This document shows, piece by piece, positions 7,727-39,599 of a stretch of DNA of 64,000 nucleotides (position 1 is its first letter; each line of letters opens with the position of its first letter). The stretch lies in the NCBI RefSeq assembly GCF_012274265.1, contig NZ_JAANYY010000003.1, positions 618,975 to 682,974 of the forward strand. Direction: 5' to 3'. The position numbers and the translations under genes were made by a program. The notes under the pieces are model-generated. The model saw only the letters and a program-made list of their open reading frames with translations, made no database searches and was not told the DNA's origin. This DNA comes from Sphingopyxis microcysteis (lineage in GTDB: Bacteria > Pseudomonadota > Alphaproteobacteria > Sphingomonadales > Sphingomonadaceae).

Positions 7727-9046
7727 ATGACCAAACCCCGCATCCTGCTCATCGTCGGCGGCGGCATCGCTGCTTACAAGAGCATCGAGCTTGTCCGCCT
7801 GCTTCGCAAATCGGGCATGACCGTGCGCTGCGTCATCACCCGCGCGGGCGAGCAGTTCGTGACGCCGCTGACGCTCGCGGCGCTGAGCGAGAACAAGGTT
7901 TACACAAATTTGTTCGACCTCAAGGACGAGGTCGAGATGGGGCATATCCAGCTGAGCCGTGAGGCCGATCTGGTCGTCGTCGCGCCCGCGACCGCTGATT
8001 TGCTGGCGAAGATGGCGGCGGGCATCGCCGACGACCTCGCCACCACGCTGCTGCTCGCCACCGACAAGCCGGTGCTCGCGGCGCCCGCGATGAATGTGCG
8101 GATGTGGTTGCATCCCGCGACGCAGCGCAATGTCGCGACCTTGCGCGGCGACGGGGTGACGGTGCTGGACCCGGACGAGGGCGAGATGGCGTGCGGCGAA
8201 TATGGGCCGGGGCGCTTGCCCGAACCGGCGGCGATTTTTGCGGCGATCGAGAGCCGCCTCTCGAATCCGCTCGCGTCGAGCGCAGTCGAGGCGCCGCCCC
8301 TGCCCTCACGTGTCTCGACTTCGCTCGACACGAACGGAAGCTTGGACCATCAACCCGATTTCGCGCCTGAAAATCACCGCCCGCTCTTTGGCCGCCGCAT
8401 CCTGATTACCGCAGGCCCGACGCACGAGCCGATCGACCCGGTGCGCTACATCGCCAACCGGTCGAGCGGCAAACAGGGTTTTGCGATCGCCGCCGCCGCC
8501 GCCGAGGCGGGCGCCGAGGTGCTGCTGATCGCGGGGCCGGTGCCGCTACCGACCCCGCCGGGGGTGATCCGCGTCGATGTCGAGACCGCGGTCGAAATGG
8601 CCGAAGAGGTTCGGCAGGGACTGCCGGTCGATGCCGCGATCATGGTCGCCGCCGTCGCCGACTGGCGGGCGGCCGACACATCGGCGCAAAAGATCAAGAA
8701 GGACGGCAGCGGCGCGGTGCCGCCGCTGGCGCTGGCCGAAAATCCCGACATCCTTGCCGGGGTCGCCCGATCGCCCGACCGCCCGCCGCTGCTGATCGGC
8801 TTCGCCGCCGAGACCAACGACGTCATCGCGCACGCCGAAGCGAAGCTGGCCAAAAAGGGGTGCGACTGGATCGTCGCCAACGACGTTGCCGCCGACCCGA
8901 TGGGCGGCGAAAGCAACCGCGTGCATATCGTTAGCAAAAACGGGATAGACAGCTGGGACCGACTGCCGAAAGCCGCCGTCGCCCGCAAATTGATGGAAAA
9001 GATCGCCGATGAGCTCGATGCGCGTAGCCCCCGCCACTCCGATTGA
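7727..9046 (+). CDS. coaBC: Bifunctional phosphopantothenoylcysteine decarboxylase/phosphopantothenate--cysteine ligase
   Basis: CoaBC makes 4'-phosphopantetheine from 4'-phosphopantothenate in coenzyme A synthesis. The N-terminal CoaC flavoprotein half shows [14 protein letters not shown], the catalytic His in [11 protein letters not shown] and the PAMNVRMW motif. The C-terminal CoaB ligase half shows [21 protein letters not shown] and KIKKDGSG. Between them (about residues 178-207) lies an unusual linker encoded by a palindromic repeat that is found elsewhere as intergenic DNA. The frame is kept and both halves look complete, so the gene should be functional. Confidence 0.95.
8269..8336. 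repeat. Palindromic repeat inside coaBC, TCGACTTCGCTCGA family
   Basis: The right part (about 8310-8336, GTGTCTCGACTTCGCTCGAC followed by ACGAACGG) matches the right arm of the intergenic repeats at about 18.6 and 39.5 kb. The left part (about 8269-8290, GTCGAGCGCAGTCGAG) is its imperfect complement. The element is translated in frame into the linker between the CoaC and CoaB domains. Confidence 0.8.
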
Positions 9047-18521: not shown

Positions 18522-18564
18522 TATTTATCAGCCCGACGGCGGCTTGCGAGCGGAAGCAGCCGCT

Positions 18565-18683
18565 CAATCCAGTCCCCGTTCGTATCGAGCGAAGTCGAGA
18601 TACGCGTGGCTTGGCGTAAGCGGTCGGCGTGTCTCGACTTCGCTCGACACGAACGGAAATAGGAGACGTCTGGAATCCACCCC
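18565..18683. repeat. Dispersed repeat copy 1 (about 119 bp), TCGACTTCGCTCGA family
   Basis: Internal inverted arms (CGTATCGAGCGAAGTCGAG and its complement) sit inside a longer unit from CAATCCAGTCC to GGAATCCACCCC. It is almost identical to 39481-39599. Part of it also occurs inside coaBC. Confidence 0.88.
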
Positions 18684-39267: not shown

Positions 39268-39379
39268 GGCAACGGGTTATGGCGGGTCATGGGCAGACGG
39301 CAAGTGGCAATCGCCAGTGCCGCACCGCGACCGGATGCCGTACGGCAAGATACGGCCGGAAACCGCCCCATCCATCATC

Positions 39380-39453
39380 GTCACCCCGGACTTGATCCGG
39401 GGTCCACGACTTCAGCGCCGCAGTGGATCCCGGATCAAGTCCGGGATGACGAA
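39380..39453. repeat. Palindromic repeat, GTCATCCCGG family
   Basis: Arms of about 30 bases (TCGTCACCCCGGACTTGATC and a near-perfect complement ending GGGATGACGA) with a few mismatches, close kin of the element at 1405-1486. Confidence 0.8.
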
Positions 39454-39480
39454 TGTCCTTAGACGACCGGTAGCGGCCGT

Positions 39481-39599
39481 CAATCCAGTCCCCGTTCGTA
39501 TCGAGCGAAGTCGAGATACGCGTGGCTTGGCCTGAGCCTTCGGCGTGTCTCGACTTCGCTCGACACGAACGGAAATAGGAGACGTCTGGAATCCACCCC
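39481..39599. repeat. Dispersed repeat copy 2 (about 119 bp), TCGACTTCGCTCGA family
   Basis: Runs from CAATCCAGTCC to GGAATCCACCCC and differs from the copy at 18565-18683 by only a few bases in the loop region. The two copies have the same orientation. Confidence 0.88.

Follow-up and report, generated by a model that had tools for sequence, protein, structure and literature searches.

A REP-like palindrome read in frame in the CoaBC linker of Sphingopyxis microcysteis, an apparent recurrent landing site for genomic repeats

RESULTS

The coaBC gene and its interdomain linker

The stretch of DNA analyzed here, referred to as the window, comprises 64,000 nucleotides of the Sphingopyxis microcysteis genome; the closest named records by sequence, L111 and L112 (94% and 92%), agree with this genus. 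It carries coaBC, with a palindromic repeat that we designate T1 lying between the two domains of the encoded protein, and two further T1 elements. The features are as follows.

7727..9046, + strand: coaBC (phosphopantothenoylcysteine decarboxylase/phosphopantothenate-cysteine ligase), 439 amino acids, intact frame
7739..8251, + strand: CoaC half, Pfam Flavoprotein, residues 5-175 (Pfam scan)
8255..8374, + strand: interdomain linker, variable, 40 codons here against 21 in 46 of 77 same-genus genes (linker comparison)
8267..8337, no strand assigned: T1, REP-like inverted dimer, translated in silico as a 24-residue peptide (repeat matches and frame)
8267..8294, - strand: T1 left arm, one hairpin unit (CCGCTCGCGTCGAGCGCAGTCGAGGCGC), with the C-G version of covarying pair 8-27 (covariation)
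8310..8337, + strand: T1 right arm, second hairpin unit (arm comparison)
8390..8932, + strand: CoaB half, Pfam DFP, residues 222-402 (Pfam scan)
18576..18656, no strand assigned: T1 element, 81 nt, outside recognized genes; three frames read through it, none with a Pfam domain
39492..39572, no strand assigned: T1 element, 81 nt, outside recognized genes; one 111-codon frame reads through it, with no Pfam domain

The coaBC frame is open throughout its 439 codons, and T1 occupies approximately residues 181 to 204, in frame between Flavoprotein and DFP; since the Pfam scan recovered both of these domains, the insert is flanked by both halves of the enzyme. The product has homologues in Mycobacterium smegmatis CoaBC (6tgv) and Escherichia coli CoaB (1u7u); the match to the CoaC homologue stops at query residue 172, that to the CoaB homologue starts at residue 220, and the insert maps to the place corresponding to loop 180-189 of the M. 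smegmatis protein. According to the available parts of the account of that protein (PMC7794376), CoaC forms the core of a dodecamer with CoaB dimers at its edges, and the loop that links the two makes tight contacts with each. To judge from the sequence, the repeat segment of coaBC is read as part of the CoaBC protein.

T1 is an abundant REP-like dimer

The 20-nt word GTGTCTCGACTTCGCTCGAC matches exactly at 8310-8329 and has an inverted partner, with three mismatches, at 8275-8294; corresponding arm pairs lie elsewhere in the window at 18584-18648 and 39500-39564. At up to three mismatches, this word has six matches in the window, against a mean of 0.01 in shuffled sequences, and a 24-nt T1 arm matches 149 times in the whole genome (3.46 Mb, 10 contigs), 77 times in forward and 72 times in reverse orientation, against no match for the reversed-pattern control. 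Copy number was counted in this genome alone; the other T1 carriers are G065 and G040. An earlier note on this DNA had placed a dispersed palindromic repeat in frame inside coaBC, with related arms near 18.6 and 39.5 kb, and had described the frame as intact and both halves as retained. All of this is borne out, as is the presence of many copies in the genome, and the span that it gave (8269-8336) comes close to the unit measured here.

Around the best-conserved 100 of the 149 arm matches, together with those of the window, 72 T1 places were recovered. The two arms face each other (a '-+' pair) in 68 of them; 65 of these 68 paired places span 72 to 83 nt and 67 fall within 65 to 90 nt, the coaBC copy measuring 71 nt. 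The copies at 18576 and 39492 have 30-nt arms that are 93% complementary, and their common sequence extends past the palindrome on both sides (18560-18680 and 39476-39592); a spacer peptide is also common to some further genomic copies (L215, L227, and L229). The shared flanking and spacer sequence hints at a longer subfamily. Just before the copy at 39492 lies another inverted pair (39378-39452; 30-nt arms, 93% complementary), which resembles a CGTC-class REP.

The T1 arm consensus is CCGTTCGTGTCGAGCGAAGTCGAGACACGC, with the ends CCGTTCG/CGAACGG. Arm positions 8 and 27 form a Watson-Crick pair in 129 of 134 arms (93.8 expected if independent), and positions 9 and 26 do so in 130 (71.5 expected); the pair versions seen are T-A and C-G; G-C, A-T, and C-G, and the left and right arms of an element frequently differ in version. 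The stem thus covaries inside each arm, and the unit is therefore a single hairpin and the element a dimer of two, in the style of REP dimers. The T1 family is REP-like by virtue of its 28-nt hairpin arms with a covarying 5-bp stem, its 149 matches, its inverted-dimer layout, and its location mostly outside genes, Pfam domains being present in 9 of 102 scanned read-through frames. The arm consensus lacks a GTAG or CGTC terminal tag, as these tags are defined in the text of PMC3733652.

Several means of mobility were considered. The RAYT-type Y1 transposase domain (PF01797) gave no match in this genome, the control being positive in 5 of 14 genomes; 15 of the 80 genus genomes have a match and 65, this one included, have none. 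RAYT was therefore rejected as the present mover of T1 in this genome. Flanking 3-nt matches of the kind left by target-site duplication were found at 2 of 67 T1 elements, with none longer, and the absence of such duplications led us to reject a classical MITE identity; base composition beside the ends of T1 is weakly biased (best column, 0.78 bits). Plasmid carriage was set aside because a single plasmid record, from Sphingobium, matched the repeat (four places; best match, 76.7% over 71% of the query).

Filled and empty linkers in the genus and beyond

A coaBC match was found in 79 of 80 same-genus genomes, and 77 linkers were extracted with both halves present. Forty-six of the 77 are 63 nt long and of a single type (ALANAPAPVPLTGQPDFAPAN), and 61 hold no recognized repeat; a dispersed palindrome arm, at no more than one error, is present in 15, and a decayed arm is present in one more. 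The 15 genus linkers of at least 120 nt are the same 15 that hold a repeat arm. The segment is absent from most same-genus linkers, which identifies it as an insertion, as the earlier note had anticipated. Its suggestion of a strain-specific event did not survive the same alignment, T1 being common to the linkers of three species (L031, which is our own, L032, and L033). In G064 and G075, coaBC is broken at or near the linker.

Two other families occupy the same segment. T2 (CCCCTCCCGC..GCGGGAGGGG) occurs in 11 linkers (L034, L036, L037, L039, L040, L041, L042, L046, L051, L064, and L104) and T3 (TTCGACAAGCTC; TTCGACAAGCTCAG..) in one genus linker, L035; the three families are mutually unrelated, and every insert is in frame. 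Words of T2 and T3 are present in all 18 genomes searched, namely, the 15 carriers, G035 with its decayed arm, and two noncarriers; T3 words are scarce in seven of the 18 (two to four matches) and number 24 + 23 in the T3 carrier, G069. The 66-nt linker of G035 (L088), in which a T2 arm is recognizable at four errors, is likely a T2 remnant left by an in-frame deletion between the arms, and the L090 linker may be a remnant.

Outside the genus, T1-like inserts occur in Allosphingosinicella vermicomposti (L148) and in two sphingomonad metagenome-assembled genomes (L150 and L170), the L170 insert being intermediate between T1 and T3 words. A family-wide search matched coaBC in 378 of 397 genomes, and from these matches 13 genes picked for length and 7 others were examined. 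Seven of the 13 hold a recognizable repeat, which is T1 in L246, T1-like in L239 and L241, T3 in L247, T2 in L248, T2-like in L237, and, by resemblance, a CGTC-like dimer in L238; the remaining six (L240, L242-L245, and L249) have no recognizable repeat. Among the 7 others, L253 could pass for a remnant; in L250, two half-units lie in direct orientation. The linkers of L182 and L250, palindromic or repeat-like in appearance, were left unassigned.

Length is divisible by three in all 155 extracted linkers, a set that includes duplicates of one gene, such as L102/L133 and L103/L143, as judged by identical linkers; one linker, L189, holds a stop. The latter, from Sphingomonas sp. TREG-RG-20F-R18-01, reads MLGR*MAD, which gives the impression of coaC and coaB as two neighboring genes. 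Linkers of 64 to 91 codons with no recognized repeat (L185, L243, L244, and L245) indicate that the family sets no fixed length for its linkers.

The linker compared with other coding sequence

In the catalytic halves of 84 genes, none of 1498 windows of 120 nt contained a T1, T2, or T3 arm at up to five errors. For 20 genomes, some of them chosen as insert carriers, 20 kb of sequence next to coaBC was compared in a control that is small rather than genome-wide: of 36 repeat arms, none lay inside any of 263 copies of 15 conserved genes. The coaBC gene itself has an insert in 9 of the 20 (G037, G069, G008, G062, G070, G013, G009, G026, and G027). UbiB, whose gene adjoins coaBC, matches over nearly its entire length in 78 of 80 genomes, extra sequence never exceeding 12 nt, and RNase E contained no repeat arm in 19 whole frames of 869 to 960 codons.

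Within our own genome, 104 frames run across a T1 place and extend at least 20 codons beyond it in both directions; the Pfam scan covered 102 of these, 20 of them as ORFs beginning at a start codon or at the edge of the stretch, and the other two are wrong frames over coaBC. Among the 72 recovered places, coaBC alone has domains on both sides of T1. Eight other frames have a Pfam domain after T1, which always precedes the domain, as follows.

L017: MFS transporter
L017, opposite strand: cyclase
L201: class-V aminotransferase
L205: Obg
L198: amidohydrolase (weak)
L007: ABC transporter
L213: lysine-decarboxylase-like
L196: signal peptidase

In these frames, T1 probably lies mostly in leaders and may form N-terminal additions; coaBC may thus not be the sole translated copy. 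A codon-composition filter was passed by 6 of the 72 places (coaBC, the L017 cyclase frame, L004, L018, L219, and L220), and the frames at L004, L018, L219, and L220 contain no Pfam domain.

Reading frame and silent sites

Of the three frames open across the left arm, nine T1-like alleles all use a single one, which yields variants of PFVSSEVE. In seven of the nine the right arm yields variants of STSLDTNG, and in the other two, L239 and L241, it is decayed but keeps the phase. The nine represent at least four lineages (Sphingopyxis; L148; L246; and L150, L170, L239, and L241, which are perhaps related), and agreement of four independent lineages on one frame would be expected by chance about once in 27. 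All 28 nt of the right arm in coaBC are identical to the genome arm consensus and to the arm in the two other species; the 30-nt identity across the three species is weak on its own, given that 14 of 390 codon-aligned 30-nt windows of the gene are equally identical.

T2 is read in phase 0 in nine alleles, here called T2a, and in phase 2 in L036, L041, and L248. In the T2a arms, 3 of 16 fourfold-degenerate columns are variable, against 124 of 189 in the flanks (P = 3e-4; eight of the nine rows), and in the T1 arms none of 13 is variable, against 77 of 215 (P = 0.004); both P values are optimistic, since arm columns were set by hand and columns share descent. Pairwise fourfold differences for T2a are 3-4% in the arms, 29% in the spacer, 34% in the tail, and 30% in the flanks. 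That silent sites change so slowly in the arms could be due either to a function of the hairpin or to palindromes correcting themselves. The T2a spacers of L042, L051, and L064 contain 19 to 21 nt that are the antisense of the D-arm of tRNA-Gln(CTG), the tRNA itself being at L231-L236; in G070, G009, and G043, that tRNA and coaBC are the sole sites of the D-arm word at up to two mismatches.

Separate insertions and exchange between species

The occurrence of T2 in two different phases implies separate insertions, giving at least two T2 events in the genus and, with T1 and T3, at least four insertions; the inserts of other genera (L246, L247, L248, L237, L238, and L148) are candidates for further events. 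On a quick tree of the two halves, built with the linker removed and with SH-aLRT support only, T2 needs 10 changes, of which at least 6 are forced by well-supported branches, and T1 needs three, of which at least 2 are forced, changes here including exchange and loss besides insertion.

The nearest relative in the set, G037 (UbiB, 97%), has T2 where this species has T1. Over 4.2 kb, the two are 92-100% identical in DNA in 24 of 28 windows; the low windows are the first 150 nt of coaBC (83%), two linker windows (71 and 83%), and one beyond (89%). The 150 nt before the linker are nearer to L032 (0.93) than to G037 (0.87), and the 150 nt after it are nearest to G037 (0.95). These patterns suggest that the linker allele has passed by homologous recombination. 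A loop variant, CCAGC, is common to the coaBC T2a copies of G049, G070, and G026, and exact copies of the variant, coaBC included, number one, three, and two in these genomes, respectively. Given this rarity, the arms of the three appear to be inherited and related by descent and not refreshed from the genome.

DISCUSSION

Genomic repeats appear to have landed in the coaBC linker again and again, and the T1 element there may be tolerated or useful. We consider it highly probable that a T1 dimer entered the linker and was kept in frame and that the linker is a recurrent sink for several repeat families. A REP-like dimer of two inverted 28-nt units would have entered in a common ancestor of S. 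microcysteis and two relatives, and its retention would be due to the outcome staying in frame. The linker presumably joins two domains whose folding and assembly are independent of its length; inserts that come to a multiple of three, with the loss of a few old bases, and read as a mild, soluble peptide would survive there, and insertions in most other genes would be removed. The families probably also move from one species to another when a section of coaBC is replaced by homologous recombination. Silent sites in the arms would then evolve more slowly than those of the gene, either because a DNA or mRNA hairpin matters or because palindromes correct themselves in replication. The central reading of the earlier note, a mobile palindrome absorbed by the CoaBC linker, is supported; as for movement, what is seen is no more than a gain over empty relatives; no mobilizing enzyme was found, and homologous transfer of the allele is also suggested.

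Several observations fit this account less comfortably. The C-terminal part of RNase E is disordered and has no Pfam domain, but RNase E carries no insert in 19 genomes, so tolerance alone may not explain the coaBC inserts. The T1 element measures 71 nt but the net gain in linker length is 57 nt, which implies that approximately 14 nt were lost or that the ends were altered. This genome lacks a PF01797 match that could account for movement of the repeat, and the tight contacts of the M. smegmatis loop, as described in the available parts of PMC7794376, are unlike those of a free linker.

An alternative that we judge doubtful is that the hairpins in coaBC are kept for a function in mRNA or DNA, such as slowing ribosomes so that CoaC folds first, or transcript protection or pausing, and that the linker is reoccupied since this is useful. 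In both T1 and T2a, which are separate insertions, silent sites are conserved in the arms only, with spacer and tail diverging like the flanks; the CCAGC-variant arms were inherited and not refreshed; and different families, all of them hairpins, recur at one place. However, 61 of 77 genus linkers do without a recognized hairpin, template-switch correction of palindromes during replication would likewise keep the arms perfect, and the fourfold P values are optimistic for the reasons given above. An extended form of the proposal, which we offer only tentatively, is that the linker is a true REP-type hot spot across the sphingomonads in which at least four unlike families settled separately and that the translated hairpins are maintained as nucleic acid structures inside the coding sequence of an essential gene, where their effect would perhaps be to time translation between the domains.

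It is improbable, in our estimation, that the linker DNA is a preferred insertion target by virtue of its sequence or structure, regardless of tolerance. Most inserts of any family (T1, T2, L035, L150, L170, L241, L246, and L248) start 9 to 15 nt into the linker, as such a preference would predict, and the flanks of T1 copies have the weak bias noted above; on the other hand, L148 starts at the linker border, L239 starts 51 nt in, and L247 starts 34 nt in, target-site duplication is wanting beyond the two 3-nt matches, and no target word common to the insertions was noticed by eye. We give very little credence to a single old insertion in a sphingomonad ancestor that was lost many times and drifted from family to family: the T1-like inserts do agree in position and frame between lineages, but the T1, T2, T3, and CGTC-like inserts are mutually unlike and each matches a repeat type, T2 is found in two frames, the empty linkers have a conserved sequence that repeated loss would not restore, and the genus members branching nearest the outgroups (L100-L103 and L105) have no inserts. 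Chance likeness or an assembly artifact, for which one could cite the GC-rich genome and the simple repeat core, can be all but dismissed in view of the shuffled and reversed controls and of inserts in independent assemblies of several species, including the single-contig genome G069.

The preferred reading, a recurrent sink whose inserts are kept in frame, bears on a wider question. Protein-coding palindromes are best known from Rickettsia, where their presence is readily excused by the relaxed selection acting on a small intracellular genome; the sphingomonads present the same phenomenon in an enzyme held to be essential. In addition, related species carry the one linker in natural versions that are empty, filled, swapped, or partly deleted (T1 in this species, T2 in G037, and the likely remnant L088), a series suited to studying the conversion of repeat DNA into protein, the frames that survive, and any effect that a coding-sequence hairpin may itself exert.

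Comparison with known systems

Among known systems, the palindromic elements (RPEs) of Rickettsia are alike in being dispersed palindromes of several families lying in frame in protein genes, in the portions of PMC10969869 and PMC3733652 available to us, and T1 in coaBC appears, from its sequence, to share their signature of an in-frame insert that leaves the domains intact and is absent from relatives. As described in those portions, RPEs are approximately 150 bp long and hit many unrelated genes, whereas T1 measures about 80 bp, only one of the 72 places examined has recognized domains on both sides, and one linker is hit by several families. MITEs are likewise short, noncoding, and dispersed, with inverted ends, but T1 has no target-site duplication, its stem covaries within the arm, and its left and right arms often differ. 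REPINs and BIMEs, which are moved by RAYTs, resemble T1 in being inverted REP dimers with a variable spacer and differ in that our genome has no match to the Y1 transposase domain.

Other close parallels are the GTAG and CGTC classes of REPs, including intragenic ones, characterized in the consulted parts of PMC3733652 as 20- to 40-nt hairpins with a conserved end tag that often form inverted dimers and are mostly intergenic. T1 shares with them a hairpin unit with a conserved end and the inverted-dimer arrangement; it differs in that its unit ends in CCGTTCG/CGAACGG, neither GTAG nor CGTC. The intragenic cases in that source include tRNA synthetase and TruB genes of S. alaskensis and recB of two Xanthomonas species, in which different REPs lie at about the same site. 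Its main text makes no mention of coaBC or pantothenate, and the parts covered contain no case of a linker that houses several families in different genera. Our literature search, mostly of listings and excluding supplements, met no palindromes in the coaBC linker, and a search with the repeat sequence was also empty. Palindromes within proteins are thus already known; as far as the literature searched extends, what is new is that a single linker has been used repeatedly by unlike repeat families.
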